A stretch of DNA of 64,000 nucleotides from Methanolobus sp. Lineage in GTDB: Archaea > Halobacteriota > Methanosarcinia > Methanosarcinales > Methanosarcinaceae. The notes beneath the pieces were generated by a model. That model was given only the letters and a program-made list of their open reading frames with translations. It had not been told where the DNA came from and did no database searches. The stretch is taken from NCBI RefSeq assembly GCF_016278365.1, contig NZ_JADQBZ010000007.1, positions 62,001-126,000 of the forward strand. Reading direction: 5' to 3'. Shown here piece after piece: positions 9,969-50,620 of the stretch. Numbering within the stretch: position 1 is the stretch's first letter; each line of letters starts with the position of its first letter. The position numbers and the translations under genes were made by a program.

Positions 9969-12609
9969 TGGATCTAAAAAAAATAAGCATTAGCCATAAA
10001 ATATTGGTAGTATCTTTATTATTAACTATATTGCCCGTAACGATTGTTGGTTTTCATGCTTCGGGCAAACAGAAGCTGGTACCTGGTCTCAATTAGAAGA
10101 GTATTTGAATGACCAAATGTTTCTTGAAAAGGTTTATATAAAGTCTACATTTTCCCTTGCACAAGACAAAGTAAATAGTGACCTGGGAGTTGCAAGGGCT
10201 GTTTTTTACTCTAACGGTAATCCTGAAATTGTTGATAGACAAATGGTACTAGGAGAAGATTATGTCGTCAATAATAATTTTGAGATCGTCGATAATGTCA
10301 AGAATATGGTAGGAGGGACTGCTACTGTATTTCAGGTACTGGATGAAGAGGCTGTAAGGATCTCTACTAACGTCATCACCGATGAGGGAGAAAGAGCAGT
10401 CGGTACTACCGTGTCGCAACCAGTGTATGATACAGTTGTCAACAAAGGTGAAACGTTCTACGGAAGGGCATGGGTGGTCAATGCCTGGTATCTGACCGCA
10501 TACGAACCGATCAGAAATAGTTCTGGTGAGATCATAGGTATTCTTTACGTTGGTGTTCTTGAAGATCCATTCGTCAATACAATAAAGACACATATGAGTG
10601 AAATTGTTGTAGGTGAGACTGGATATATCTATATAATGGACTCTGAAGGAAATCTTGTTATTCACCCTAATATGGAAGGTGAGAATGTCTACGAGCATGA
10701 GTTTGCAAAAGAGATCATCAATAACAAAGAAGGTATTATTGCTTACGAGTGGGAGGGTCGTGAAAAGATTGCAGGCTACACGTACTATGAGCCAAACGAT
10801 TGGTATATAATATCAAATACTTATTATGAAGAGTTTGCAGGTCCTCTACTGGCAATCAGGAACAGTTTAATAATAGCTGTTTTAGTCTTTGTGATTCTTG
10901 GTGTTTTAGCTGCATTCCTTCTAAGCAGATCTATTTCCGGTGGAATTCAAAAAATAGTTACTGAATTTGACGATATAACCAACGCTACTCTTCAGGGTAA
11001 ACTGGACAGGAGAGCAAATGTTGATGTAGGTATTGATTTCGAGGCGATACCCAGGGGTTTCAATCAGGTACTGGATGCTGTGAAAGAGAATGAAGAAAAG
11101 CTCCAGGAATTCATAGACAATGTCCCTGTTGGGATCTTCCGTACTAATTCTGATGGAAAAGCTCTTCAGGCAAATCCTGAGATGGTACGGATCGTAGGCA
11201 GAGAGAGTAAAGAAGAATCTCTCGAATACATGCATAATGTAGGGGAACAATTATATGCTAATCCGGAACGTCGTGACGAGCTTATCAATGTACTTGCAAA
11301 AGAAGGTCATGTTGAGGATTTTGAATTTGAGGCTTTACGTGCAGATGGCAAACATGCCTGGTTAATGATCAATGCAAGAACAAATGTAAAATCAAAATCA
11401 GATGATAATCACTTTTTAATAGATGGTTTTGTTCTTGATATTACAGAACGTAAAAAAGCAGAAGAATCACTGAAAAGAACCGAATCGAAATATAGGCAGG
11501 CACACAATATACTGCAAAAGGTCATTGAAAGCCCTAAAGATGTTGTCATATTTGCTCTTGACGAAGATTATCGGTACATTGCCTTCAATAAAAATCACCA
11601 GATGACAATGGATCATATATGGGATGCCAGAATAGAAATTGGTGTCAATATGCTTGATTACACTAAAAACCCTGCAGATGCGGAAAAGGCAAAAGTGAAT
11701 TTTGACAGAGTACTTGCAGGAGAAGCCTTCACGATTGTTGAAAAGTACGGTGATTCTTTACTCGAAAGAAAATGGTATGAGAATGTGTACAGTCCTCTTG
11801 AAGGTGATAAAGGAAGTGTTATCGGACTTACTCTGTTCATGACTGACATCACTGAACGTAAACAAGCTGAAATGGCACTTCTTCAAGCCAAGGCCTTGGC
11901 TGAAGAATCTAATAAGATAAAATCAGAGTTCATTGCGAACATGAGCCATGAACTTCGTACACCGCTCAATTCAATCCTTGGTTTTTCCCAGATACTGAAT
12001 GAAAAAGTGGTTGGAGATCTGAATGAAAAACAAATACGTTATATCTCTAATATACTGAATAGTGGCACTCATCTGTTAGACTTAATCAATGATATTCTTG
12101 ATATTTCAAAAATAGAATCTGGCAATATGGAATATGCACCTGAGATAATTGATATCAAAGAAGTAATGAATGAAATAATAGTATTAACGGAACCTCTGGT
12201 AAAAGAGAAGAATATTGGTTTTGAAGTCAGCAGTGCATTTGAAAGGCTGGAAATAAATGCAGACAAGATGAAGATCAAACAAATAATATTTAATCTTCTT
12301 AGCAACGCAATCAAATTTACACCGAAAAACGGCAAAGTATGGTTTGATTCTAAAATAATGACTGGAACTGTTCAGATCTCTATATCAGATAATGGTATTG
12401 GCATTCCACTAGAAGAGCAAAAAGCTATATTTGAGCCATTTAAGCAAGTTAATTCATCTGCAAACCGCACTCACGGAGGAACTGGATTAGGACTTGCAAT
12501 TGTTAAGTACTATGTAGAGATGCATTCAGGAGAGATACATGTTGAAAGTGAAGTTGGTAAGGGAAGTACGTTCACATTTATAATACCAATTGGTTTGAGA
12601 AACAATTGA
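9969..12609 (+). CDS. Cache-PAS-PAS sensor histidine kinase, N-terminus frameshifted
   Basis: The N-terminus starts at ATG 9969 (MDLKKISISHKILVVSLLLTI, first membrane helix) but reaches a stop at 10091. From about 10060 the protein continues in another frame as FGQTEAGTWSQLEEYLNDQM, so one base appears to be missing. An extracellular Cache sensor domain follows (GRAWVVNAWYLTAYEPI; GYIYIMDSEGNLVIHP), then a second membrane helix near 10870-10930, two PAS domains and a kinase core: H-box EFIANMSHELRTPLNSI, N-box NLLSNAIKFTP, G-boxes DNGIGIP and GGTGLGLAI. No response regulator is adjacent. Without the N-terminus (TTG 10105 start) the sensor would lose its first membrane anchor. A sequencing error is possible. 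Confidence 0.8.
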
Positions 12610-12802
12610 TTATTGATCATAGAAATAACTTTGATTTAAACCCCGCCTCAGATAGGCACTCCTATTCCCCACTACAAAAACCAGTATCAACTGACACAGT
12701 AAATAATTGCAATTCAGAGGAAGCATAATCTGAACTATCATGTTGCAATGACGAAAAGGAACTTTTTAAGTACTTAAAATCAGAAGAAGTATTTGAACAT
12801 GG

Positions 12803-12876
12803 TGGGCCCGAGGAGATTCGAACTCCTGACCCCCGCCGTGTAAAGGCGATGTCATAACCGGCTAGACCACGAGCCC
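12803..12876 (-). tRNA. tRNA-Val (UAC)
   Basis: On the minus strand the acceptor arm GGGCTCG pairs with CGGGCCC, the T-arm contains GTTCGAATC and the anticodon stem-loop TCGCC-TTTACAC-GGCGG gives anticodon TAC (valine). The discriminator is A and the CCA end is encoded (12800-12802). No intron is visible in the anticodon loop. Confidence 0.95.
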
Positions 12877-13085
12877 AATGTGTGCAAATTCAATGCCCGC
12901 AACAGGAAACTTACGAGCAACTCCTTAATGTAACTAGTTGTATATATTACTTTTTGGTCAACTGACTGTGACTTTGATTCAGGGGGATCCTGTGACTGCA
13001 TCCATTCCATTGACGGCAATGGCAGAAAGAGGGATGAAATAGACGGAAACAGGCTCAGTAACCGGACTTCTTATAGGTCATCTAA

Positions 13086-13688
13086 TTAGTAACTATTTTG
13101 CGGGAAACACATATCTACCGTATCACGGACTTCCCGGAGCCATGCCTCTCTTTGCTCCTGAGTGCTCCCGGCTATCGTCCTGAACATCCTGCGGCTGTAG
13201 TTCCTCACGCCGCAGAAATCAAAGATGCAGTTTCTCCATATCTTCTCGAGCGGGTCCCCGAAGACAGTGTTCTCCCTTTCCCCGGGAGTGTTGGAGGTAT
13301 TGAACACGATAGCTGCTTTTGCCTTTAAAAGACCTATCGGAAGGCCGGAGCCATCATTATTTTCATCGAACCTATATGCCACCTTTTCCCGGAGTACCCG
13401 GTCCACCCAGCCCTTAAGGATAGCCGGGGGCTGTCCCCACCAGTTCGGATGGATGATGATTATGCCATCGGCGTCCCTGATCTCTGAGCAGTGGGTCCGC
13501 ACGAGTACATCCTCCGATCGGTCTGTGATAAGTTCCTCATCCCGGATAACAGGATCAAAATCCTCCATGTAGAGATCATGGAAACGGACATCATGCCCGT
13601 TCTCATTTAGAGTATCAACTGCCTCAGATGCAATAGCGTGATTGAGGCTTTTATCATAAGGATGACCCAGTATAACAGAAATTTTCAT
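13086..13688 (-). CDS. NAD(P)H oxidoreductase, flavodoxin_2/KefF-YwrO type
   Basis: A 200-residue flavodoxin-fold protein: ISVILGHPYDKSLNHAIASEAVDTL binds the FMN phosphate, IIIIHPNWWGQPPAILKGWVDRVLREKVAYRF is the hallmark of the NAD(P)H:quinone oxidoreductase family and FNTSNTPGERENTVFGDPLEKIWRN follows. It should reduce quinones or similar acceptors with two electrons in the cytoplasm. ATG 13688 is chosen over the in-frame start at 13712 because the fold begins immediately and a GGGTGGT ribosome site is near. The Dabb-protein gene lies upstream on the same strand, suggesting a two-gene transcript. Substrate unknown. Confidence 0.85.
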   Translation of the reverse strand: MKISVILGHPYDKSLNHAIASEAVDTLNENGHDVRFHDLYMEDFDPVIRDEELITDRSEDVLVRTHCSEIRDADGIIIIHPNWWGQPPAILKGWVDRVLREKVAYRFDENNDGSGLPIGLLKAKAAIVFNTSNTPGERENTVFGDPLEKIWRNCIFDFCGVRNYSRRMFRTIAGSTQEQREAWLREVRDTVDMCFPQNSY

Positions 13689-13759
13689 GACAGGACCACC
13701 CTGCAAAAACACAAACAGCCCGGGCGCTTACATATGAATGTCATGTGTGAACTGTCCTC

Positions 13760-14062
13760 TTATACCAGATAATCTACAACAACCCGCTCTTCCCGGATCT
13801 TTGCCACAAATTCAGCAACTTTCAAATGCTCCGGGTCACCCTGATAAACGGACAGTGCCGCTTCGTCTCTGAACTCTGAGTAGAGCACGATATCGAATGC
13901 GGCATCCGAGGGTTTCATATTGTGCCCGACTTCCAGCAACAGGATCTCAGGTATCTTTCCCGGCAGGGACTCAAGCATCTCTTTCATTACGGCTGCATTC
14001 TCATCTTTGCTTTTTCCTTCCGCATAGTCTTTCAGTTTCCACATAACGATATGTTTTAGCAT
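13760..14062 (-). CDS. Dabb-family (stress-responsive A/B barrel) protein
   Basis: A 100-residue protein starting MLKHIVMWKLKDYAEGKS, with LLEVGHNMKPSDAAFDIVLYSEFRDEAALSVYQGDPEHLKVAEFV, the standard Dabb pattern. Such proteins form dimeric ferredoxin-like alpha/beta barrels; some are cyclases or detoxifying enzymes, many have no known activity. A ribosome site (AAAAGGAAG) precedes the ATG. It lies 71 bases upstream of the flavodoxin-like reductase on the same strand. Confidence 0.85.
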   Translation of the reverse strand: MLKHIVMWKLKDYAEGKSKDENAAVMKEMLESLPGKIPEILLLEVGHNMKPSDAAFDIVLYSEFRDEAALSVYQGDPEHLKVAEFVAKIREERVVVDYLV

Positions 14063-28451: not shown

Positions 28452-29471
28452 TTATAGAGGCATATCCTTCAGTTCCTTTGAGCCCATATTGATAGAGATC
28501 TCAGCAATATCAGCACTGTATTCCGCGATGCGTTGAAGGCTCTCAAGGACATTCCTCTTGTGCTCCCCTGTACTGCTGTCCTGGCCGCATTCCCTTCTGC
28601 AGATAAGGGCAGCCATATTGGATAGCTTCTTTGAGTTCTTTATTATTGTGTTTGCAAACTGAGGGTCCTTTCCTGACATTGCCTCTACTGAATCCCTGAA
28701 CAAAGCCTGTGCCACCCTGCCAATCCTGAAGATCTCATCGTTGCGGTCCACAGGACAATCCATCTCCAATACATTGGTGGCAATCCTCTGAACATGATCA
28801 CCTATGTGCTCCATGCTTTTTGTAACGATCCGATAACCCAGACAGTCCTTTGACCGGACAATGCCTATCTTCTGTGCCATGAAGGGATCATCAAGGGCTG
28901 CTCTTAACTGCCTTACAGTCAGCAGGTAGAACCTGTCCACATCATCATCCCTCCGGATGACATCATTTGCCAGCTCAAGGTCATGTTCCTCCAAGGAAAT
29001 CAACGCATCCTCAAGCATAGAAGAGATTATCCGGTCCATGCTACTCATGGACTTGAGGATAGTGATCTCCTGGTAATTCAGAAGGCTCTGCAGTACAAGT
29101 TCGGTCCCCGTTTCCTCAACTATCTCAATGCCTATCAGGCGCTTGCGAGCAGCATCTCTCATGAACTTCCTTTCAGATGCCGTAAAACCGTTTGGGGAAA
29201 CTATTTTCATTATGTCATAGCCCATAAGATAATTTGACACAAGCATCCTGAAATCATCTTCCTGATCACCGGAGAGATATATTTCTATGACAGAGCGACA
29301 TATCTTTTCCTCAGCAGGCATCTCCGCAGTGACAGTAAGCGAACGGTCAGACCTTACAGAAAGGGAAACGGTGTCCCCCGGAGATAGTCCACTCTGCCGA
29401 ACCCACAAGATAGGGAGCGACACAATATAGGTAGACCCACCTGTCAGCTGAATCTTTCTTTTTTCGGACAT
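28452..29471 (-). CDS. AbrB-PhoU type regulator (copy 1)
   Basis: A 339-residue protein. Residues 1-45 form an AbrB/SpoVT swapped-hairpin DNA-binding domain (KRKIQLTGGSTYIVSLPILWVRQSGLSPGDTVSLSV). The rest is a PhoU-like helical bundle with LANDVIRRDDDVDRFYLLTVRQLRAAL and RIVTKSMEHIGDHVQRIATNVLEM, where the acidic residues form PhoU metal sites. Archaeal proteins of this layout are thought to control phosphate uptake. The same layout occurs at 43256-44218. Here no pst gene is adjacent; the pst genes lie 7 kb away. Confidence 0.85.
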   Translation of the reverse strand: MSEKRKIQLTGGSTYIVSLPILWVRQSGLSPGDTVSLSVRSDRSLTVTAEMPAEEKICRSVIEIYLSGDQEDDFRMLVSNYLMGYDIMKIVSPNGFTASERKFMRDAARKRLIGIEIVEETGTELVLQSLLNYQEITILKSMSSMDRIISSMLEDALISLEEHDLELANDVIRRDDDVDRFYLLTVRQLRAALDDPFMAQKIGIVRSKDCLGYRIVTKSMEHIGDHVQRIATNVLEMDCPVDRNDEIFRIGRVAQALFRDSVEAMSGKDPQFANTIIKNSKKLSNMAALICRRECGQDSSTGEHKRNVLESLQRIAEYSADIAEISINMGSKELKDMPL

Positions 29472-29495: not shown

Positions 29496-30614
29496 TTATG
29501 AAAGGACTGTAAGGTTGCCCGAGACCTGGCTGAGCTTTGCAGTCATCCCCCTGTCGTCGGTGACCATAAGGTCGATGGTCACATTCTGGTGATTATAAGG
29601 ATCTATCATCGGCCTGACAACCATACCTGAGAGGTTATAGTCATAGAGAACCTCATTTCCATTATCGTTCCACAAGGCCCATTTGTAGCTGGTGATGAAC
29701 CCATCGTTGTCCCTGGAGTCAGAAGCATCCAGTATCATGTAACTGCGAGGAGACTGGGTGCCGTTCGTATCCATTATATACTCCACCCTGAACTGGACAT
29801 TAGCCACCGGCATGGGAGGAGTGAACAGCCCCTTGAAGATATTAATGTAAGAAGTTATCAGCTCTATCTGCAAAGGCTCTTTTTCCAGGGGTGGCACCCC
29901 AAAGTAGGATCTGAAATCAACAGTATAGGATATATCATAATTTGTTGTATTTGAAAGGCTGCCTCCCGAATCATTCCCGAAGAAGGTGATGGTCTGGGTT
30001 TCGTTAAAGATGGTGAAGTTGGCCCCTTGATGGCATACAGTGGAATTATTTATGTCAACCACTTTATAAGTGAAAAACTCCCCGGAATAAGCTTTCCAGG
30101 GATGCATTTTCAGGCGATAGGTATAATTCTCACTGTTGTTGGTCCAGCCTGTGGTGGCGGGTATGGCCTCTGAGCCTGTTACCACGATATCGGAAAAGTT
30201 GAGGTGAATGGTCTTGGCCTTGGTGGCGGGTATCATGACCCTGTTCTTTGCATGATAGACTGCCGGATAATCGCGGTAAACATCATGATTTCCGGAAGCA
30301 TCGTAGGCCTTGAAGTTCAGGAAGTAAGCGTCATTGAGCTTGATGGAAGAAATGTAGGAGTTAGCGGTATTGAGGTTGAGCACGGTCATGTCTATGGACT
30401 GCCACGCAGTTCCGTTGCCTGAAGGCTTGATGGAGACGATCCTGAGCTCTTCGCTCTTCACAGCTGCCTGGTGGCTTTCGCGGTCCATTGCATCCTTTTG
30501 CATGGTGGATACCATGAAAGCTACGCCGGAAGCAGCGATAATAGTGATCAGTATCAATAGTAGCGTTGCAAATATCACTGAGACTCCGCGGGTATCCCGC
30601 AGGAAAGTGTTCAT
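29496..30614 (-). CDS. Type IV pilin-like protein with large exported domain
   Basis: The N-terminus MNTFLRDTRGVSVIFATLLLILITIIAASGV is an archaeal class III (prepilin) signal: basic residues, then G at the cleavage point and a hydrophobic helix. The remaining 340 residues are beta-rich and Asn/Thr-rich, ending in a PKD-like segment (SYMILDASDSRDNDGFITSYKWALWNDNG). ATG 30614 is chosen because it gives the compact prepilin signal; 30629 is an alternative. It is divergent from a KaiC-like gene and upstream (in the map) of the two TadC-like proteins and the ATPase, and is likely a substrate of that pilus machine. Confidence 0.75.
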   Translation of the reverse strand: MNTFLRDTRGVSVIFATLLLILITIIAASGVAFMVSTMQKDAMDRESHQAAVKSEELRIVSIKPSGNGTAWQSIDMTVLNLNTANSYISSIKLNDAYFLNFKAYDASGNHDVYRDYPAVYHAKNRVMIPATKAKTIHLNFSDIVVTGSEAIPATTGWTNNSENYTYRLKMHPWKAYSGEFFTYKVVDINNSTVCHQGANFTIFNETQTITFFGNDSGGSLSNTTNYDISYTVDFRSYFGVPPLEKEPLQIELITSYINIFKGLFTPPMPVANVQFRVEYIMDTNGTQSPRSYMILDASDSRDNDGFITSYKWALWNDNGNEVLYDYNLSGMVVRPMIDPYNHQNVTIDLMVTDDRGMTAKLSQVSGNLTVLS

Positions 30615-30754
30615 ATCCTTACCAGCCATCAAAGAGAAAAAGCAGATACCAAATGATATACTTTATTAACATAATATATATAGTACCCTATAGTTTATTT
30701 ATTTTTTTAGTTTGTTCCAAAACCATTTAAACAATGATTACTTTAAGGGAATCA

Positions 30755-32018: not shown

Positions 32019-33371
32019 CTAGAACTCATCATTCACTATTATCGTGGCAATACCACTTGATTCACCTACTGTCGCTGTTACTGTATATGTACCTTTATCT
32101 GATCCGGGAACAGGCGTTACAGCCACGGTTCCGTCCTCTTGTGTCATTGAACTGGTTATCACACCCTGAGGTGCTATCGTCATCTTAACAAAGGTACCAG
32201 GCACAGGATTGCCATCCGTGTCAGTGACATTGAATACTATAGGCTCCTGTAAAGGAAGACCGCCAATGACCTCCTGGGCGTCACCGGACATAGCGGTTAT
32301 TGTATAGGTGCCGGCTATGCCGGCCGGGAGCAATAAGGTTACAACTGCCACATAGCTCAGGGCGATCAGGAGCGCAGAGTGCTTGAAGCCGTGCTTGATC
32401 TCACCTTCGGTGATCTGGCCGATGATGAGCCCTCCGAAAAAGGCGTTGAGGACGATCATATGGAAGAAGCCGCGCCCGAAATTGATATCTGAAAGGCCGG
32501 CGCCTCCCAGCATTTCCAGGCCGACCCCCTGGATCATAGGGAGCAGGGAAGTGGAAAGGATATAGGTCAGCATTATGATTATACCCTGGGCAAGGTAGAA
32601 TATGATAATGTACTGCTTCAGGTTGGCCTCTTTCTCTCTTTCGATGCCTATGACAGCCCTCATGTCTTCCGATGTACGGAAAAGCAGGTCTGCTACATTG
32701 CCGCCTGTATAGGCTGCCATGACCACGATATCAATATATTTGTTAACCAGCCTGCTCCCTATGGAAGCTGACATCCTGTGCATGGAATCTTCAAAAGAGT
32801 GGCCCAGGACCATTGATGATGCGGCGTCCTTGGCGCTTTTGCTTATGGCTCCCATATTGGTTCTTGAGAGTGTGACCACACCTTTTACGGGATCTATACC
32901 TCCCCTCATGAGCTCTGACAGCTTGTACAGGAACTCACCGAACGCTACCTCCCTTTTCTTCAGGTTCTTTTTCTGGATGAAAGTATCGATGGAGAAAGGG
33001 ATGATAGCCACCAGTGTCGCAAACACGATTATGTGGTCCAGATCGTCCTTTGACTTATCTTTTTCCTCTTTGGCCGGCTCTGTTTCCACGGCTATCGGGA
33101 GCTCTCCTCTCTCTGCAGCTTCAGATGCTTCCATTTCCGCAACAAGGGCCTCATAGGCAGCCTGCTTTGCAGCGGCTTCACTGTTCACTGCGGCACTGCT
33201 TTGCCCTTCAGGAGGAAAGAGTGTGTGTCCGGCCAGTATGGCGACGAGTACTATCATCAGTGCTGCAAATACGGGGACCCCGAGGGTCAGATACTCCCGT
33301 TTGATGTTGTAGCGTATGCTCGCGATCTGTGCATAACGTTTCAACACCTGGAGATATACGTCTGTCTTCAT
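32019..33371 (-). CDS. TadC/ArlJ-type pilus membrane protein with C-terminal Ig-like domain
   Basis: A 450-residue protein. After an N-terminal helix and a long charged Ala/Glu-rich insert (about residues 75-115, ending EPAKEEKDKSKDD) comes a T2SSF-type domain: FLYKLSELMRGGIDPVKGVVTLSRTNMG, GGNVADLLFRTSEDMRAVIGIEREKEANLKQYIIIFYLAQGIIIMLTYI, then further helices. The last 80 residues form an Ig-like (Big_1-like) domain (FNVTDTDGNPVPGTFVKMTIAPQG; GTYTVTATVGESSGIATI), which should face outside. It overlaps the upstream gene by four bases (ATGA). Such proteins anchor the pilus in the membrane. Confidence 0.8.
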   Translation of the reverse strand: MKTDVYLQVLKRYAQIASIRYNIKREYLTLGVPVFAALMIVLVAILAGHTLFPPEGQSSAAVNSEAAAKQAAYEALVAEMEASEAAERGELPIAVETEPAKEEKDKSKDDLDHIIVFATLVAIIPFSIDTFIQKKNLKKREVAFGEFLYKLSELMRGGIDPVKGVVTLSRTNMGAISKSAKDAASSMVLGHSFEDSMHRMSASIGSRLVNKYIDIVVMAAYTGGNVADLLFRTSEDMRAVIGIEREKEANLKQYIIIFYLAQGIIIMLTYILSTSLLPMIQGVGLEMLGGAGLSDINFGRGFFHMIVLNAFFGGLIIGQITEGEIKHGFKHSALLIALSYVAVVTLLLPAGIAGTYTITAMSGDAQEVIGGLPLQEPIVFNVTDTDGNPVPGTFVKMTIAPQGVITSSMTQEDGTVAVTPVPGSDKGTYTVTATVGESSGIATIIVNDEF

Positions 33372-34285
33372 AGGATGCTCCTTGAGTATTTCATCCAGAG
33401 CAGTATCAGAAATACGATGTTGATGAATGGCAGTGCGAAATATACGAAGAGGTTGAACATCTGCCTGGGAGTCAGGGGTCCCAGGTCGATACCCAGCGCG
33501 CTTCCGACCACGATCATAAGGACCACAAGCACCACGCTCATTACAACGCCGCTCAGGTAGCCTTCCCCGTAGACTGCAAGTGAGTCCACGAACTCTCTTT
33601 GTAGCTTGCCACGCAGGTCCATGAGTTCCTTGGATTTCATCTCAAGATAGGTACGAAGCCCTCCCCCCGCCTGCATGGCATTGGCGAGGTCCATGCATAT
33701 CGTCCTGAAGGATTCGGAAGAAGTGTTGCGTACAAGGTGGTTCATGGCAGTGACACCATCCTCGCCCAGAACATCCACACGATACATGACCTTACCAAAT
33801 TCGGTAGATATCTCACCGTAGTCCTCTATGGCTACAGTCCTCACAACATCCATGGGCGAGGAGCCGGCACTTGCAAGGATGGACATGTAGCTCAATGCAA
33901 AGGGAAGCTCGTGTTCTATATTCATGTTCTTGCCGGATATCTTGTTGTACAGCACAAAAGGAAAACCGCTTATGGTAAGGCCGAATGTAAGGAATGTCAG
34001 CATCCCGATGTAAACGAGAGGCGTTGAAGAATTGCGAAAGAGAATCACTGAAAAAGTAAAGACAATAGCTGTTGCAATCAGGGCCGTGACTATGGAGAGG
34101 GATATGAACATGCCGGGTGTCATGATCATGTCGGCCTGGTAGAGGGATCTGGAAATATCCTCCCGTGGCTTCCTGTCAAAGTATTTACCCAGGAAGTAGC
34201 AGAACATCTTGTACTTCTCCAGGTATTCGTTGGTCTCACCGTCATTGAATGCCCGGCGGATACCATCAGTGCTGCCCGTTCCCAT
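33368..34285 (-). CDS. TadB/ArlJ-type pilus membrane protein
   Basis: A 305-residue T2SSF-type protein: LPFALSYMSILASAGSSPMDVVRTVAIEDYGEISTEFGKVMYRVDVLGEDGVTAMNHLV and the following SESFRTICMDLANAMQAGGGLRTYLEMKSKELMDLRGKLQREFVDSL are family hallmarks. Membrane helices are near residues 60-80, 85-105, 245-265 and 280-300. Its ATG directly follows the stop of the ATPase gene (TAAATG) and its end overlaps the next gene by four bases, so ATPase and both membrane proteins are one translational unit. Confidence 0.82.
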   Translation of the reverse strand: MGTGSTDGIRRAFNDGETNEYLEKYKMFCYFLGKYFDRKPREDISRSLYQADMIMTPGMFISLSIVTALIATAIVFTFSVILFRNSSTPLVYIGMLTFLTFGLTISGFPFVLYNKISGKNMNIEHELPFALSYMSILASAGSSPMDVVRTVAIEDYGEISTEFGKVMYRVDVLGEDGVTAMNHLVRNTSSESFRTICMDLANAMQAGGGLRTYLEMKSKELMDLRGKLQREFVDSLAVYGEGYLSGVVMSVVLVVLMIVVGSALGIDLGPLTPRQMFNLFVYFALPFINIVFLILLWMKYSRSIL

Positions 34286-36493
34286 TTACTGCATCGTCTC
34301 CATAAGCTCATCCTTGTGGCGCGCATATTTCCTGATAGCCCTGGCAACATCCTTATAATCGCATATGCCCTGAGCAGCAAGGCTTTCAATGTACCTTGCC
34401 CGCTCGTCCATCTCCCGGACAAGTTCCTCTACCTTTATGCCGAATTCCTCTTCGATATCCTCAAAGAGAGAGCTGCTGCCGCTGAACTCATAGCGGTCCC
34501 CGACCGGGTCCCATTTGAAGACAGGGTTGGTGATAAGGTCCTTGCGCTCAGGGTCCAGTTCCACTATTTCAACTATCCTGAGGGCGCGCCTGATGAAGTG
34601 CTCACCGACCTTGACCATGGCGTTGAATATGACCATGTCAACACTGGCAAAGAGGTTCCTGGGCACGTTCATGGGTTCGGATTCAACTCTTGAGAGCAGT
34701 TCGTGGATGGAGCCGGCGTGGATGGTGCCCATACAGGGGTGGCCTACAGAGATGGCCTGGAACAAAGTGCCGGCCTCAGCGCCACGAACCTCACCTACCA
34801 CTATGTACTCGGGCCTCTGCCTCAGTGCGGCCTTGAGAAGGTCGAAGAGCTCGATGTCACCTGCAGATTTGCCGCTGCTGCTGTCCCCACCAAAACCCGC
34901 CCTTGTGATGGACTGGGTCCAGTTGGGGTGCATGAGGTTCATCTCGGCGGTGTCCTCGATGGATACTATCTTGTATTCGGGAGGAATGAAAGAACCCAGG
35001 GCGTTGAGGGTCGTTGTCTTGCCGGAGGCCGTACCACCTGCTGCAAGTACGGAGCGCTTGTATTCGATGACGATCCAGAAATATGCCAGCACCTGTGCAT
35101 CATAGGTGCCGTAGTTCATGAGGTCGATGCAGGACACAGGATTGGACTTGAAGCGCCTGATGGTGAATGTGGAGCCTCTCTTAGTGACCTCCTTGCCGAG
35201 GGTGAGATTAGCACGGCTGCCATCGATCAGGGTGGCGTCCCTGATGGGCTGGAGCACTGAGATGTGCCTGCCTGCGGCCTGGGCCATCCTCATGACGAAG
35301 TTGTTAAGCTCAAGCTCCTCGAAGGAGACATTCGTCTTAAGAGAGCCATATATGCGGTGATTGACGTATAGATTGGAATAAGGACCGTTGCAGGTGACAT
35401 CCTCGATATAGGGGTCATTCATGAGCAGGTCGATCCTGTCAAATCCCATGTATTTTTTGTGAAGATAATAGAAGAACTTCTCTTTCTGTGCTTCTGTCAG
35501 TTTAAAGCGATATATTTCCGTGATGAAGAAGAAACGGTCCCTGAGAGCGTCCTTGCGGTTCTCCTCCTCCACCAGCAGTATCTCGGAGTGAGCCATCTTG
35601 TCAAAGGCGTTCTGGACAATCGCCATGGTCTGCTCCTCAGTCTCACTGAGAGGAGGCTCTATGCATTCGTAGGAAAGCTCCTCCCCGTCAAACCATACAT
35701 GCACGTACTGGAACCTGGGAGTTACTTCGTATATGAGATCCAGATCCCTGTGAGGCACGCCATAGATCGGTTTGCTGACCACGCCCGGCTCAAAGACCAG
35801 CTCATCAATGACTTCGGGCTTAGGATTGATGATCTTTTCGATCCTCTGCAGCAGAACCTGGACAAAGTCATCCTCGCTTTCGGAAAGCCCATCATTACCC
35901 TCAGGCAAATGCAGAGGGTCATCAGGCTGGCTTTTCTTTCTCCTGAGACCAAGGCCCGATTTTTTCCCCCCGGCAGGCTTTTTCGCCTTTTTCACTTTCT
36001 TCCGGGAGCCCCGCATCCCAAACAAGCCCCTTTTCCCTGAAACTTCCTCCGGCACATCACTTATTGAGCCCAGAGCATCTGCTCCGTCAAGCATCGATAC
36101 AGCAACAGAGCCTTCCTCATATTCCTCATATTCCCCATATTCACCGCATTCCTGCCTGACAGCTGCCTCTCCCCCATCCTCCGGAGAGCCCTCCCTGCTG
36201 CCGGGAACATCCTTCTTCTTCCTGAAGCTCAATCCAAAGCGCTTTTTCCCGGCAGGCTTACCTGACCTGACCGAAGGCTCATGGACCTCACTCTTCTTTT
36301 GCCTTCCCCTAAACCCGAAAATACCCTTTTTCCCTTTTTTGTTCTCACCACTATAACCGGAAACTTCCTGAACAGGCACATCCTCCCCGGCAACACTTTC
36401 AGAATAAGTTACTTCAGGTTCCCGGAAAGAGAGCTCCGCCTCTTCGGACGGGATCTCATAATCAGAATAGGTTTCCGTGTTTGTACCAGCCAT
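34286..36493 (-). CDS. Type II/IV secretion-system ATPase (ArlI/CpaF-like) with repetitive basic N-terminus
   Basis: A 735-residue ATPase. The last 500 residues are a standard secretion ATPase: YHLHKKYMGF-type N-domain (FFYYLHKKYMGFDRIDLLMND), Walker A AAGGTASGKTTTLNAL, Asp box SIEDTAEMNLMHPNW, Walker B LRQRPEYIVVGEVRG and His box VGHPCMGTIHAGS. The first 220 residues are unusual: acidic stretches alternate with four basic motifs (KKGIFGFRGRQKK, KKRFGLSFRKKK, KRGLFGMRGSRKK, KKSGLGLRRKK). These could bind membrane lipid or nucleic acid. It powers assembly of the pilus-like fibre. Confidence 0.85.
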   Translation of the reverse strand: MAGTNTETYSDYEIPSEEAELSFREPEVTYSESVAGEDVPVQEVSGYSGENKKGKKGIFGFRGRQKKSEVHEPSVRSGKPAGKKRFGLSFRKKKDVPGSREGSPEDGGEAAVRQECGEYGEYEEYEEGSVAVSMLDGADALGSISDVPEEVSGKRGLFGMRGSRKKVKKAKKPAGGKKSGLGLRRKKSQPDDPLHLPEGNDGLSESEDDFVQVLLQRIEKIINPKPEVIDELVFEPGVVSKPIYGVPHRDLDLIYEVTPRFQYVHVWFDGEELSYECIEPPLSETEEQTMAIVQNAFDKMAHSEILLVEEENRKDALRDRFFFITEIYRFKLTEAQKEKFFYYLHKKYMGFDRIDLLMNDPYIEDVTCNGPYSNLYVNHRIYGSLKTNVSFEELELNNFVMRMAQAAGRHISVLQPIRDATLIDGSRANLTLGKEVTKRGSTFTIRRFKSNPVSCIDLMNYGTYDAQVLAYFWIVIEYKRSVLAAGGTASGKTTTLNALGSFIPPEYKIVSIEDTAEMNLMHPNWTQSITRAGFGGDSSSGKSAGDIELFDLLKAALRQRPEYIVVGEVRGAEAGTLFQAISVGHPCMGTIHAGSIHELLSRVESEPMNVPRNLFASVDMVIFNAMVKVGEHFIRRALRIVEIVELDPERKDLITNPVFKWDPVGDRYEFSGSSSLFEDIEEEFGIKVEELVREMDERARYIESLAAQGICDYKDVARAIRKYARHKDELMETMQ

Positions 36494-36632: not shown

Positions 36633-37526
36633 TCAGCCTATCCTGCGCTTCCACAGAATCAGTCTTGTCGTTGCATTAATGATCATCACAATAATTATCA
36701 AGACAAATGCTGCTGCAAATCCCTCTGAAACGGAAACCAAGTGGGGAAACTCGAAGGAATGATAGACGGTTATAGGCAAAGCTGCCACAAGGTCCTGAAA
36801 AGGATATATCTTTATTCCAAAGATCATTTTCTCGCCCGCACCGACCCCGAATTCGGGAAAGAACTGCGTATAGCCTGCAGTCAGTATAACGACAGCAGAT
36901 TCTTCGGCAGCACGTCCTACGCCTAGCACTATGCCGGTAATTATGCCGGACAGTGCATAAGGTATTGTTATACGCTTGATAGTATCCCATTTAGTTGCAC
37001 CAAGAGCGTAACTGCCCTCCTCCATATCTCTGGGAACAGTATCTATTGCCTCTTCTGCAGCCCGCTCTATAGCGGGAAGTATCAGTATTGCAAGTGCAAT
37101 TGAACCTGAGAGCAAGGAAAAACCACCTGTAACAGTCCTCATGTAATAGACAAGTACGAGCAGTCCAAAAATACCCAGAACTATCGAGGGGGTACCGGAT
37201 AGTACGTCAATGAAAAAACGGAAGCCTCTTACAATAAAGCCGTCTGTTGCATATCTTTTCAGGTACACTGCCGTACCGACTGCAACAGGAGCCGCAAGAA
37301 TCGTAGAGAAAATGGAAAGAAGAATAGTACCTGCAATCGCATTCCCTATAGCTCCTCCGAAACTGGGAGCCATGGACTCTGGTGTCAGCAGGAAATACAG
37401 GCTAAGGCTTGGCATTGCTTTCACAGCAATGGTTCCCAGTATGAAGAATAATATCAGGACTGTGGAGATGGCGCATAGATACGAGATTCCGATGAACATG
37501 TTGCCTTTTATGAATCGTGTTCTCAT
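36633..37526 (-). CDS. pstA: Phosphate ABC transporter permease PstA
   Basis: A 297-residue permease with six membrane helices and the ABC permease EAA loop EGSYALGATKWDTIKRITIPYALSGIITGIVLGVGRAAEES. SGTPSIVLGIFGLLVLVYYM is typical of Pst permeases. It overlaps pstC by four bases (ATGA) and has a strong ribosome site (AGGAGG) inside the end of pstC. With PstC it forms the phosphate channel. The ATPase gene pstB, usually next, is not found downstream; the next gene is the pilus ATPase. Confidence 0.9.
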   Translation of the reverse strand: MRTRFIKGNMFIGISYLCAISTVLILFFILGTIAVKAMPSLSLYFLLTPESMAPSFGGAIGNAIAGTILLSIFSTILAAPVAVGTAVYLKRYATDGFIVRGFRFFIDVLSGTPSIVLGIFGLLVLVYYMRTVTGGFSLLSGSIALAILILPAIERAAEEAIDTVPRDMEEGSYALGATKWDTIKRITIPYALSGIITGIVLGVGRAAEESAVVILTAGYTQFFPEFGVGAGEKMIFGIKIYPFQDLVAALPITVYHSFEFPHLVSVSEGFAAAFVLIIIVMIINATTRLILWKRRIG

Positions 37527-38425
37527 ACACGGCCTCCTATTTTCCTTGCCGCTGCAACAAACACTATCTCCATAGCAAACAGAACGGCTGCAATAGCAAA
37601 CAGGGCACTCTTTGGCTCTTCAAAAGCTACATAGTAGCCGATATCGTTCAATATTTTGGAGGTCATTGCATACCCATAACCAAAAAAAGAGTTGGGTATG
37701 GTAATCACGTTGCCGAAAAGCATCACTATTGCCATGGTCTCACCCATTGCGCGCATCATTCCCAGGATAACTGCAGCCATTATACCCTTAGATGCGGCTG
37801 GCAAGACCACCTGACTTATGGTTTCCCATCGTGTTGCACCTAAAGCAAAAGAAGCTTCTCTGTACTCTTTTTTAACTGCACGTATTGAGTCCTCGGAAAT
37901 GGGGATTATAGTAGGCAATATCATTATTGCAAGCACCGTCGATGCCAGTGCCAGGCCTGCCCCGTCTGTGGACCCCGCACGGAAAAAGGGGATTAAACCA
38001 AAAGTTGATGATATAAAAGGCGCTATGTGGTCCCGGAAAATACTTCCAAGCACATAGAGCCCGAAAACCCCGTAGACAACAGAGGGGATACCTACGAGGA
38101 GTTCAATAAGAGGACGCATGACAGAAGTTACTTGCTTTGGGGCAATCTCAGACATGAAGATGGCAGTAAATATACCTAAAGGTACGGCAAGTATAAGAGT
38201 GACAGCAGTAAGGATCATGGTCCCAGCAATGAATATACGAATTCCATAAACGTTTTCCGAATAATCCCATACAGAACCTGTCAGAAAATTGATAAGTCCC
38301 TGGCTTACAAAAGTAGGATAGGCAACATAGAAAATGTAACTTACAAAGAATATAGTAACCACGGCTGTTAGCACAGCACATGAAGCAAAAAAAACCTGTG
38401 GTATGGATTGGACAATCCTGCTCAT
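37523..38425 (-). CDS. pstC: Phosphate ABC transporter permease PstC
   Basis: A 300-residue permease: VGIPSVVYGVFGLYVLGSIF and the EAA loop EASFALGATRWETISQVVLPAASKGIMAAVILGMMRAMGETMAIVMLFGN are diagnostic. Six helices are visible. It is translationally coupled to pstA by an ATGA overlap. A strong intrinsic terminator lies in the 85-base gap from pstS, so pstCA probably depends on read-through from pstS. Confidence 0.92.
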   Translation of the reverse strand: MSRIVQSIPQVFFASCAVLTAVVTIFFVSYIFYVAYPTFVSQGLINFLTGSVWDYSENVYGIRIFIAGTMILTAVTLILAVPLGIFTAIFMSEIAPKQVTSVMRPLIELLVGIPSVVYGVFGLYVLGSIFRDHIAPFISSTFGLIPFFRAGSTDGAGLALASTVLAIMILPTIIPISEDSIRAVKKEYREASFALGATRWETISQVVLPAASKGIMAAVILGMMRAMGETMAIVMLFGNVITIPNSFFGYGYAMTSKILNDIGYYVAFEEPKSALFAIAAVLFAMEIVFVAAARKIGGRV

Positions 38426-38510: not shown

Positions 38511-39506
38511 TTAGAGGATGTCATACATTGAGAAGTAACCGACCTGTGTGAAGTATCCCTTCTGTGCAGGCTGGGTTGCAAAGTCTATGAATGACTTCTC
38601 AATTGTTGAGGGAGCACCGTTTGTCAGGTAGAGCAGTGGTCTGGTCAGACCGGATGGGAAGGTGCTGGTCTCGCCCTTGAGGGTTGCCTTGATACCGGAC
38701 TTTACATCCTTCTTTACAGTGGTGGTCATGGTGTCAACCGGAAGGATGACTACACCGGTGGATGATTCTGCAAAACCGAAGTCCACGAATCCGATTGAGT
38801 TGGTTGTTGATTCAACTGCAGCGAGCACACCGGCGTTACCGGACTTGCCTACTGCCTTTGTACCATCCATCCAGGTCTTTGAGCTTCCGTGTATGAAGTA
38901 GGAGAAGGTTTCCTCAGTACCGCTTGTTTCTGATCTCTGGAAGAGGGTTGCACCGGAACCAGTGGTGTTAAATCCAGCAGTTGTCAGGTTTGCATCTGAG
39001 ACTTTTCCATTTGCATCTGCGGACTCGAAAAGGGTCTTAATCTGAGCCTTGGAAGGTACTGTACCGGTCGCGTTGCCGATGCCATTTCCAATAAGAACTA
39101 CAGCACTGGCACCAATCTGGTGTTTCTGGAGTTCAGGGTATGCAGTTATAGTGTCAACATCCTCAGAGGAAGCACCGATGTCTACAATACCGAGCTTAGC
39201 AGAGGTGATACCTGCACCAGAGCCGCCAGCCTGGACTGTGACCTTGATACCGGAGTTCTGTTTCATGAAGTCTTTTGCGAGAAGTTCAGAGACTGGCTGA
39301 ACGGTTGAGCTTCCAGCTATAAGGAGCTGGGTTGATGCACCAGCGGCTGCGCCTTCAGCGCTTGCACTGCTGGAAACGTCGCTTGAGAATGATCCTAAGA
39401 TTGTACCGACTGCTGCTGCACCGGCGATTGCAACTACCACGAGAACGAGGGTTGCAACGATGGGTGAAACACCAGCTTCGTTGTTAAAGAGTTTCTTTAT
39501 GTTCAT
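38511..39506 (-). CDS. pstS: Phosphate-binding protein PstS with archaeal pilin-type N-terminus
   Basis: A 331-residue protein. The N-terminus, NNEAGVSPIVATLVLVVVAIAGAAAVG, is that of archaeal pilins (basic residues, G-V-S-P-I, hydrophobic helix), not a lipoprotein signal. A PstS-type domain follows: LLIAGSSTVQPVSELLAKDFMKQN, GSGAGITSAKLGIVDIGASSEDV, FQRSETSGTEETFSYFIHG and TRPLLYLTNG. It captures phosphate outside the cell for PstCA. AAAAGGTG precedes the ATG. The pilin head implies processing by a prepilin peptidase and either membrane retention or assembly with pilins; the pilus module lies next door. Confidence 0.88.
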   Translation of the reverse strand: MNIKKLFNNEAGVSPIVATLVLVVVAIAGAAAVGTILGSFSSDVSSSASAEGAAAGASTQLLIAGSSTVQPVSELLAKDFMKQNSGIKVTVQAGGSGAGITSAKLGIVDIGASSEDVDTITAYPELQKHQIGASAVVLIGNGIGNATGTVPSKAQIKTLFESADANGKVSDANLTTAGFNTTGSGATLFQRSETSGTEETFSYFIHGSSKTWMDGTKAVGKSGNAGVLAAVESTTNSIGFVDFGFAESSTGVVILPVDTMTTTVKKDVKSGIKATLKGETSTFPSGLTRPLLYLTNGAPSTIEKSFIDFATQPAQKGYFTQVGYFSMYDIL

Positions 39507-39756: not shown

Positions 39757-40218
39757 ATGGCTTACAATAACAGAAAGATCAAGGTTCTATTCATTTGCGT
39801 GCATAACAGCGCAAGAAGCCAGATGGCCGAAGAATACCTCAGGAGGATTGGAGGGGACAGGTTCGAGGTGGAGAGTGCAGGACTCAAGCCATCCAGCATC
39901 AATCCCATGGTGATCGATGTCATGAAAGAGGATGGTTTCGACCTCCGGAGAAAGAAAACCCAGGCAGCATGGGACCTGTTCAGGCAGGGGAGACTCTACA
40001 GTTTCGTCATCACGGTCTGTGACAGGAAAAACGAGGCTGAATGCCCCATATTCCCCAGGCCGTTTGTGCAGATGAACTGGCCCTTCCCGGACCCAGAAAT
40101 ATTTACCGGCACAGATGAAGAGAAAATGCAGCAGATGCGGGATCTGAGGGATTCTATCAAAAAGAGGATCGAGCAGTTTGTCGAGGAAACAACCGGGGTT
40201 TCCGATGGCGGGGAATAG
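39757..40218 (+). CDS. arsC: Arsenate reductase, thioredoxin-coupled ArsC type
   Basis: A 153-residue low-molecular-weight phosphatase fold: the P-loop CVHNSARS (Cys14) is followed by [17 protein letters not shown] with Cys88 and Cys96, the redox triad of thioredoxin-dependent ArsC. Plain tyrosine phosphatases lack the last two Cys. It reduces arsenate to arsenite. No arsenite pump or ArsR lies next to it, but it neighbours the phosphate importer, the normal entry route for arsenate. Divergent from pstS. Confidence 0.88.
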
Positions 40219-42867: not shown

Positions 42868-43302
42868 TTATCCCCGCCTGAAAACCTCATACCCGAAAAC
42901 AGAGAGAGCTATGATTATGGAGGTCATTGACAGCATGAACACCATATTTGAAAACGCTTCTTTCAGCACTATCCAGGACATGCCGCCCAGGACATGCGTA
43001 ATGCTCATCAGCAGGATAATGAGAACACCTATCGGGTATATCTCCTCTCCCTTGAGAAGTTTCAGGACAGTATAACCCATAGCATAGTAGAAAACCACAG
43101 TAAATGCCAGATATGGCAGTACTATATCGTTCCTGACAGCAAAGACCAGCGTTGGGCTGAACTCATAAGCAAGGATGTTCTCGATACTGCCTGCGAAATA
43201 GAAAGTAAGTGCGTAATCAATGACAACTGAAAGTGAAAGGAAGAGGGGGATCATCCTATAATTGTGATAGATCGATCGAATATTCTGCGATATTTGATGC
43301 AT
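42868..43302 (-). CDS. Small membrane protein next to AbrB-PhoU copy 2
   Basis: A 144-residue protein with four helices (FLSLSVVIDYALTFYFAGS; LPYLAFTVVFYYAMGYTVLKLL; IGVLIILLMSITHVLGGMSW; FMLSMTSIIIALSVFGYEV). The layout, with about 17 polar residues and then an Asp-containing first helix (VIDYALTF; compare IIGDFLTTF), resembles the protein at 28046-28441. The start is uncertain: 43302 overlaps the AbrB-PhoU gene by 47 bases, whereas ATG 43254 follows its stop directly. Either way the two are translationally coupled. Function unknown. Confidence 0.6.
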   Translation of the reverse strand: MHQISQNIRSIYHNYRMIPLFLSLSVVIDYALTFYFAGSIENILAYEFSPTLVFAVRNDIVLPYLAFTVVFYYAMGYTVLKLLKGEEIYPIGVLIILLMSITHVLGGMSWIVLKEAFSNMVFMLSMTSIIIALSVFGYEVFRRG

Positions 43303-44218
43303 AGTCCCTTATCCTGCCAAAACTGTCAATGATTATATTTATTGATGCATTATCTGCCGATTGGGTAACAATAACAAGTTTCCCATTGATTTCCTCTCCT
43401 TTTTCAATCAATTGGTTAGCAAGCAAATTATCAGATCTGCGTAAAGACTCAAGAGAATCCATAAACAGATTCTGCAGATCCATGCATATCTCTTTCAACT
43501 GGCTCAATACATCCGGCGTCATCTCAGTATGCTCGTAATGCAGGGCTATTTTAGATATATGGTCCCCTGTTCGCTCGATATCGTTACCTGCCAGACGGTA
43601 ATAAAAAGCCTCTATAAGACTGAGACTATCATTCTTTGAGAATTTCCTCAGGCTCAGCCTGCTCACAAACTGCTTTGATACCAGAATGAACAGACGGTCT
43701 ATATCATCATCCCTCTTAATTATATCTTTACAGACAGAACGTTCATTGTTCTCAAATGCATCGTACAGCTCCTCAAACATGAGATAAATTATCGATGACA
43801 TGCGCTTGATGCCTTTCTCGATCGTGAACTCGTCGATGTCCAGGTAGTTCTGAATCACAAGCAACCTGTCGCTGCTTTCGGCAAGTTCAAGGCCAACTAG
43901 ACGATTACATAAATTCTTGATCTCGTTCCCGAACTCCCCTGATAAATGCTCTCCCTGTATCTCTATAGACTTATAGTCGCCTACTATGTAGAGCCCGATG
44001 ATATCTCTCTTCAGGTGTTCCAGGTTCCTGTTACCTTTGATTTTCCGGACATCTCTGCCTTTTTCCACACGAGGGGGTCTTATTATAAGCGAGCCGTCGT
44101 CGTTGTAGATAATCGATAACGGAGATCCCGACTTCAGTTTTTCTTTAGAGGCCCATTTTTTGGGAAGCGTGACGATATATGTTGATTTTCCTGTGATCTG
44201 TACTTTTCTTGTATCCAT
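43256..44218 (-). CDS. AbrB-PhoU type regulator (copy 2)
   Basis: A 320-residue protein with the same order as the protein at 28452: AbrB domain (RKVQITGKSTYIVTLPKKWASKEKLKSGSPLSIIY) and PhoU-like bundle (RSVCKDIIKRDDDIDRLFILVSKQFVSRLSL; YYRLAGNDIERTGDHISKIALHYEH; RIRDYASNIAEYSIDL). It probably senses phosphate status and acts on DNA. Upstream it has the CAATATAGAT motif also found ahead of pstS, which supports a shared regulon. A small membrane protein overlaps its end. Confidence 0.85.
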   Translation of the reverse strand: MDTRKVQITGKSTYIVTLPKKWASKEKLKSGSPLSIIYNDDGSLIIRPPRVEKGRDVRKIKGNRNLEHLKRDIIGLYIVGDYKSIEIQGEHLSGEFGNEIKNLCNRLVGLELAESSDRLLVIQNYLDIDEFTIEKGIKRMSSIIYLMFEELYDAFENNERSVCKDIIKRDDDIDRLFILVSKQFVSRLSLRKFSKNDSLSLIEAFYYRLAGNDIERTGDHISKIALHYEHTEMTPDVLSQLKEICMDLQNLFMDSLESLRRSDNLLANQLIEKGEEINGKLVIVTQSADNASINIIIDSFGRIRDYASNIAEYSIDLSQL

Positions 44219-49733: not shown

Positions 49734-50270
49734 CTATCCTTTTCTCTTAAAGCAAATGGCCGATAGTATTCCGACAATAGCAAGAACAGCACCAAATCCA
49801 GGGGATTGTTGCTCTGATTCTGATTCACCGGATGGCTCCTCATTCGTTTCCTGCTCCTGACCTTCATTTACAGGAGCAGATATGTCTTCTGTATCCTCAT
49901 CACCTATCGGATTAGTTTCATTGACTTCTGTCGATGGGATCTCCGATTCAGTTTGTGGATAATCAGCAGGGTCCCCGGGGAAGGTCAGGGCATTGATCTC
50001 TTCTACATTGGTGAATCCATCCCCGTCAGAATCGAGCGCTTCAATTGATGCAAAGTCCCTTTCACTTGCCTCATATGCCATCCCATAAGGATTCCGGGAG
50101 CCCCCACCGTTTGGATTAATATGACAGGTAGCGCATGCATCAAGCCTTGTACCTTCCGTGTCATACTGCTGGTTGAAAGCATCCAGATATGCGGGCCTCG
50201 CTGCGACAATAGGTGAGCCTAACAACATTATAATTACTACCAAAACCACTGCAATTAAATTCTTGTTCAT
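49734..50270 (-). CDS. Exported CXXCH protein with EF-hand and PGF-CTERM anchor
   Basis: A 178-residue protein: signal peptide (IAVVLVVIIMLLGSPIVAA), then DACATCHINPNGGG (Cys46, Cys49, His50), the c-type haem-binding motif, then a Ca-binding EF-hand/dockerin-like loop (LDSDGDGFTNVEEINAL), an acidic Glu/Ser-rich linker, and the C-terminal sorting signal SPGFGAVLAIVGILSAICFKRKG, i.e. PGF-CTERM for archaeosortase A. It should be lipid-anchored outside, possibly carrying one haem. ATG 50270 is preferred to 50285. A redox role is inferred. Confidence 0.75.
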   Translation of the reverse strand: MNKNLIAVVLVVIIMLLGSPIVAARPAYLDAFNQQYDTEGTRLDACATCHINPNGGGSRNPYGMAYEASERDFASIEALDSDGDGFTNVEEINALTFPGDPADYPQTESEIPSTEVNETNPIGDEDTEDISAPVNEGQEQETNEEPSGESESEQQSPGFGAVLAIVGILSAICFKRKG

Positions 50271-50620
50271 ATCTTCATCCCACATTCCTAAGTAAATAAT
50301 AAGTTCATTATTACGTAGTTATAAATGTTCTTATCATCCTGATCGAATAAGAGAAGATAGGTAGTAAGGATTTCATCAGGCCAGAGAGTTATTGTTTAAG
50401 GTGAAGCTTTCAGCAGCAAAGAAAGTAACTGATGAGTCCAACAAGTGGATGAATAAGAAAGTTCCTTATAAAAAGCAGTCTGTTGGTTGCAAATTATAAA
50501 ATATACTTCAATTAGACATTATATATAGTAAAAACTCCATTTAATTCAATATAAATAGCAATACCACTATATTCTATGATTGAGTGTGAGAAGAAAGAAC
50601 TATTTTTATGAGGTGTTCAA
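50271..50620. other. Intergenic stretch before the Msr-like regulator
   Basis: AT-rich, with TATA-like runs near 50500-50530 that suit a promoter for the regulator. A GTG-led frame of 32 basic codons (50401-50499, VKLSAAKKVTDESNKWMNKKV...) ends just before it, without a clear ribosome site; it may be a fragment. Nothing else is seen. Confidence 0.3.

Follow-up and report, generated by a model that had tools for sequence, protein, structure and literature searches.

The window (the whole 64,000-nucleotide stretch of Methanolobus DNA that we analyzed) carries a gene for a phosphate-binding protein, PstS, together with genes for the permeases PstC and PstA, a PilB-type assembly ATPase, two TadC-like platform proteins and a set of accessory proteins (Table 1). 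The first-pass annotation placed the pstS reading frame (331 residues) correctly and had read its N-terminus as a pilin-type segment in place of a lipobox, a reading that the sequence bears out and that extends to 16 further genomes of the genus. The protein has no lipobox; it begins MNIKKLFNNEAGVSPIVATLVLVVVAIAGAAAVGTILGSF, after which come a linker of about 20 residues and a PBP_like_2 domain (PF12849; E 4e-18 with the Pfam profile), and its layout can be given as a pilin-type leader and hydrophobic helix (residues 1-45), a linker (46-58), and a binding domain (59-331). The second PstS of the same genome (locus L048) is of the lipobox type (LLLLVAIFTGIGCVDN). The window PstS falls short of the curated NCBIfam model for PstS (TIGR02136; 95.9 bits against a cut-off of 206.6), and despite this both its Pfam match and its fold matches are clear: phosphate-binding proteins stand at the top of the match lists in a fold search of the PDB (Z about 25). 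In an AlphaFold2 model built from 26 related sequences the binding domain is confident (mostly pLDDT > 90), the helix at residues 15-37 has low confidence, and the linker is disordered. The positions that we take to be the phosphate contacts of Escherichia coli PstS (T10, F11, S38, D56, R135, and S139-G140-T141), matched by eye to the E. coli numbering, are kept in nearly all PstS proteins of this kind of module, apart from F11, where valine is found.

Table 1. Features of the phosphate-binding and pilus-type gene cluster (positions in the window)
Feature	Position	Strand	Evidence
AbrB-PhoU protein PhoU_b	28452..29471	-	PF01895 + PF04014
Class III pilin-like protein, PKD-like domain, start ATG 30617	29496..30617	-	TIGR02537 20.0 bits, at cut-off
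FlaH/KaiC-like protein, degenerate P-loop	30734..31426	+	PF06745; ArlH model below cut-off
TadC-like platform protein 2, C-terminal Ig-like stretch	32019..33371	-	PF00482, residues 147-272
TadC-like platform protein 1	33368..34285	-	PF00482
PilB-type assembly ATPase, PstS-linked clade	34286..36493	-	PF00437; Walker A GGTASGKT; tree
PstA permease	36633..37526	-	TIGR00974 255.5 bits, above cut-off; EAA-type loop intact
PstC permease	37523..38425	-	TIGR02138 302.8 bits, above cut-off; EAA loop intact
PstS, phosphate-binding protein, class III (prepilin-type) N-terminus	38511..39506	-	PF12849; fold matches; conserved N-terminus
PstS residues 13-45, near-invariant hydrophobic helix (H-domain)	39372..39470	-	Identity and synonymous change
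CARDB/DUF11-type secreted protein, C-terminal membrane helix	40539..42563	-	Genus distribution exactly that of PstS carriers
Small membrane protein, module member in most orders	42868..43302	-	Comparison across orders
AbrB-PhoU protein PhoU_a	43256..44218	-	PF01895 + PF04014; synteny

A TadC/TadC/ATPase module had been placed directly downstream of pstA, and Pfam matches, coordinates and strand all agree with this: PilB starts about 140 bp beyond the pstA stop, it and both TadC proteins lie on the pstA strand with PF00437 and PF00482 matches above cut-off, and the ATPase has its Walker motifs. The module is larger than first described, because it also includes the FlaH/KaiC-like protein, the pilin-like protein with its PKD-like domain, the two AbrB-PhoU proteins and the small membrane protein, with the CARDB-type surface protein as a further member in Methanosarcinales. 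The second TadC-like protein has a Big_1-like match at residues 379-440 (below cut-off), which is unusual for a platform protein. The P-loop of the FlaH/KaiC-like protein is degenerate (EED.GD.K[ST]) and is kept in this form across several orders, so that the protein may not hydrolyze ATP in the normal way. The model of the pilin-like protein has one long N-terminal helix and beta domains; in a fold search with this model most matches were Ig-like chains, and the archaellin matches were weak (E about 5e-3). A pilin fold is weakly suggested by this search, and the protein may be a base, tip or main subunit.

Several other genes in or near such modules were recorded. Divergent from pstS, here and in the two closest relatives, is a low-molecular-weight phosphatase/arsenate-reductase-type gene (39757-40218), perhaps linked to arsenate that enters through phosphate uptake. 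In several Methanolobus genomes the module is adjoined by a histidine kinase gene and a PstS-like protein with an ordinary membrane anchor (L036:1277-2194, L037:13425-14363, L040:1410-2339, L042:17783-18700, and L044:15305-16228). Orphan class III PstS paralogues (L037:6684-7808, L038:5133-6308, L043:13556-14644, L050:9284-10420, and L051:4750-5868; 39-43% identity) adjoin an AbrB-PhoU gene and have changes in the phosphate site (D at the S38 position, P or S at that of T141); they possibly bind a different ligand or act as sensors. Elsewhere in the window, 49734-50285 encodes a small protein that looks secreted, carries a single CATCH haem-type motif and has a hydrophobic anchor at its C-terminus, and a search of the window against RNA families found a tRNA alone.

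The window has no pstB between pstA and pilB, and none lies beside pstA in any PilB-linked relative that we read; in nearly all of these the pstA-pilB interval is empty of other genes. A pstB hidden within the cluster was ruled out. The sole PstB above cut-off in the window genome (G000:C15:169387-170124) belongs to an ordinary PstSCAB cluster with a lipobox PstS. Nearly all carriers in the genus likewise have a single PstB above cut-off, the exceptions being G018, for which none is shown, and G008, which has two further copies beside other PstS-like genes.

Conservation of the pst-pilus arrangement among relatives had been proposed as a check, with its absence counting against the idea; the neighborhood proved to be conserved in 16 further Methanolobus genomes and in several other orders. 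Of the 26 other genomes of the genus, 16 carry an orthologue of this PstS, N-terminus included, and each of the 16 also has the PilB, pilin and CARDB genes. PilB at 80% identity or more is confined to those 16 genomes and two others, in which the contig ends just past PstC (G017) or inside PilB (G011), so that both look like assembly breaks. The distribution of the pilin-like gene is exactly that of PilB, the CARDB-type gene occurs in exactly the 16 PstS carriers, and eight of the 26 genomes have neither the module PstS nor the module PilB. In one of these eight (G015), PhoU_a and the small membrane protein persist with unrelated genes as neighbors, suggesting that the core of the module was lost there. 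The genomes of the genus are related and do not represent independent events, and we therefore put no probability on this co-distribution.

Beyond the genus, an alignment scan found 32 loci, including examples from ANME-1, ANME-2, Methanomethylovorans, Methanoculleus, Methanofollis, Methanolinea, Methanoregula, Methanocellales, Nitrososphaerales and Thermoplasmata. The same arrangement is seen again in ANME-1, Methanomethylovorans, Methanocellales and several Methanomicrobiales, with more divergent versions in Nitrososphaerales and Thermoplasmata. PilB is present at 18 of the 20 PstCA-type loci with at least 4 kb of downstream sequence (absent at L071 and L084). Methanomicrobiales have the same gene set in another order (TadC-TadC-FlaH-like-small protein-PstS-PstC-PstA-PilB). 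The pilB frame of several lineages, ANME-1 and Methanomethylovorans among them, can start 8 bp ahead of the pstA stop and has GGAGG upstream. Set against 20 other PilB proteins of the order, the PstS-linked PilBs form one clade (SH-aLRT 100, in a tree made by a quick method and containing some long branches).

The association was also recovered in the reverse direction. When 247 genomes of the phylum were searched with a profile of the PilB clade, 14 hits reached 751 bits or more and the next one had 637; a pilin-type binding protein lies nearby in 14/14 of these clade members, and no class III binding protein lies near the four hits at 618-637 bits. For the six hits outside the genus, which were chosen by PilB score alone (one of them, G260, being an ANME-1 contig already seen), a class III binding protein is nearby in 6/6; that of G166 is a divergent relative of 407 residues (hhalign probability 99.3).

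Some of these distant loci have peculiarities of their own. The G166 module (L129:1205-2428 and 10346-13985), in which the PilB clade accompanies this divergent protein, adjoins an ABC transporter whose SBP_bac_11 binding protein has a PGF-CTERM anchor. In Nitrososphaerales, L085:10001-12265 encodes a 754-residue class III binding protein with a tandem pair of binding domains, adjoining PilB, TadC and PhoU genes. The modules at L071:12984-14543 and L084:11025-12314 look broken, the start of a PilB-like reading frame running into a Peripla_BP_2 protein and the start of PstC into the pilin-like protein; these may represent either real deletion or chimeric assembly.

The N-terminal helix of PstS is conserved out of proportion to the rest of the protein: over 17 orthologues, residues 13-45 have a mean identity of 97%, compared with 49% in the binding domain. 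Change at fourfold sites of unchanged codons is 0.40 in the helix and 0.45 in the binding domain, and this similarity of synonymous change both rules out recent exchange as the cause and indicates that selection on the protein maintains the helix. The reverse pattern (32% in the N-terminal helix, 80% in the mature domain) is found in an ordinary PstS-like protein with a membrane anchor from five of the same genomes. Judged from these alignments, selection on the PstS helix is far stronger than that on the binding domain, and the helix probably packs against something specific. A search of the window genome for a second protein with this helix gave weak matches alone (E 0.05 and 0.3) and identified no partner pilin. 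Cleavage is predicted just ahead of the helix, as NEA/GVSP or NEAG/VSP (the slash marks the cut). By the rule for prepilin cleavage, which calls for G, A or S at -1 and a charged residue at -2 (PMC4371748), the Methanolobus site NEAGVSP qualifies as EA/GVSP and fails as EAG/VSP; PstS proteins of ANME-1, the ANME-2 type and Nitrososphaerales have canonical RA/VSP sites, and in some relatives the -2 residue is N, S or I. The window genome encodes one prepilin peptidase (PF01478, contig C18), by which PstS is likely to be processed.

We lean toward reading the module as a phosphate counterpart of the Sulfolobus bindosome that has its own assembly machine and produces its binding protein in prepilin form. 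PstS would be exported with its class III signal and cut by the prepilin peptidase ahead of the helix; PilB, the two TadC proteins, the FlaH-like protein and the pilin-like protein would then gather or polymerize the helices into a bindosome-like surface structure, in which flexible linkers would hold the phosphate-binding domains out at the S-layer or beyond it. The phosphate caught there would pass to PstC-PstA, with the genome's single, distant PstB supplying the power, and the AbrB-PhoU proteins would couple the module to phosphate status. In favor of this reading are the class III N-termini predicted for all module PstS proteins, canonical in ANME and Nitrososphaerales; the identity of the helix relative to its domain, reversed in the anchored PstS; the common distribution of PilB, pilin, CARDB and PstS genes in the genus; retention of the module in other orders despite differing gene order; pstA and pilB genes that overlap or lie very near each other in several lineages; the single PstS-linked PilB clade and its reverse search; and the retained phosphate-site residues and lone prepilin peptidase. 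There is also a precedent for a type IV pilus machine that assembles binding proteins (PMC2910488). Against it are the -2 position, which is charged in Methanolobus only with the earlier of the two cuts and is N, S or I in other cases; the presence in the module of a pilin-like protein that may itself be the machine's true substrate; the L071 and L084 PstS genes without PilB, and the orphan paralogues away from PilB; and the missing PstB, which leaves transport by the module uncertain.

The bolder form of this proposal, about which we are more tentative and would put its chances somewhat below even, is an ABC transporter with a pilin binding protein that an operon-encoded type IV pilus machine polymerizes into a phosphate-scavenging filament or lattice. 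Such a system would be widespread and undescribed, spanning methanogens, ANME archaea and more distant lineages, with the G166 and Nitrososphaerales double-domain proteins as variants.

The pilin-like protein, class III itself and sharing the distribution of PilB, also makes room for a rival account, in which the PstS helix is a membrane anchor only, the pilin-like protein is what PilB and TadC build into an ordinary adhesion pilus, and the two gene sets are co-located through induction at low phosphate, as the flanking PhoU-type genes would allow. We consider this unlikely, though worth keeping in view: a mere anchor does not need such near-invariance, which the ordinary PstS anchors of the same genomes lack, and binding-protein genes are linked to one PilB clade over several orders. 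The absence of PstB is compatible with a shared ATPase and equally with a sensing role, and the second of these leads to another account: PstS-PstC-PstA without PstB would be a phosphate receptor that, with the AbrB-PhoU proteins, detects phosphate and governs the assembly of the pilus or the expression of genes. That no module has a pstB while a full PstSCAB set stands elsewhere in the genome, that two AbrB-PhoU genes flank the module, and that the E. coli Pst transporter signals via PhoU (PMC5775613) all count for such a receptor; yet the ATPase-contacting loops of both PstC and PstA are intact, and a pure receptor leaves the invariant pilin helix unexplained, and we regard it as quite improbable. 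Accident, or hitch-hiking of unrelated genes, deserves hardly any credence, since shared ancestry alone could account for the pattern inside the genus but the link outlasts gene-order rearrangement in other orders and is recovered from the PilB side in every case, the forward and reverse linkage tests together ruling out a chance neighborhood.

The nearest known system is the Bas system of Saccharolobus (Sulfolobus) solfataricus, in which a PilB/TadC-type machine is needed for the function of binding proteins with class III signals, and whose genes form their own operon, described as present only in that species (PMC2910488). The module shares with it a predicted class III signal on a substrate-binding protein and a PilB/TadC-type machine, and differs in its ligand (phosphate rather than sugar), in having binding protein, permeases and machine in one operon, in its TadC split in two, and in its FlaH-like protein. 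It cannot be filed under Bas: the module PilB scores 196.9 bits with the BasE model (NF053672; cut-off 1000), lower than the 428 it reaches with that of ArlI, and BasF (NF053673) gives 28.3 bits against a cut-off of 1300, the module having two separate TadC proteins; its machine is not a Bas orthologue. Of the first-pass idea, the side that comparison can address, a lasting link between PstS and PilB, is strongly supported by conservation across orders, the PilB clade, the reverse link and selection on the helix; that this machine organizes binding proteins at the surface is a proposal.

Within the literature searched, several points are new: phosphate as the ligand, the grouping into a single operon, a dedicated clade of PilB, the lack of a PstB and the occurrence in several orders. 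Our search found no phosphate bindosome and no class III PstS, although the 33 class III binding proteins that FlaFind listed in 22 genomes (PMC2910488; Szabo et al. 2007) might include one, and the main text of a 2016 census of archaeal type IV pili does not mention phosphate or ABC transporters. Compared with PstSCAB, the module has the PstS fold, the phosphate-site residues, and PstC and PstA above their equivalog cut-offs; it differs in the pilin-type N-terminus of PstS in place of a lipobox and in having pilus genes instead of a pstB. With archaeal type IV pili and archaella it shares a PilB ATPase (nearest model ArlI/FlaI), TadC, a FlaH-like protein and a class III pilin-like protein, but its ATPase is below the cut-off of the archaellum model (428 of 550 bits) and its conserved class III partner is a binding protein. 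The closest parallel to the PstS helix is found in the PilA pilins of Haloferax, in which the H-domain is conserved, the exposed domain is variable, and replacement of the H-domain abolishes pili (PMC4371748); as in the module PstS, the H-domain is conserved far above the remainder, but these pilins have no substrate-binding domain. Descriptions of the bindosome come from one Sulfolobus species, and a phosphate version whose parts all lie in one operon, found in several orders, would make the idea testable with one ligand, one machine and one binding protein, and would pose a clear question about transporters that have to rely on an ATPase from elsewhere. Many methane-cycling archaea carry the operon, which suggests a surface structure built to catch a scarce nutrient and a way in which methanogens and methane-oxidizing archaea might compete for phosphate outside the S-layer.
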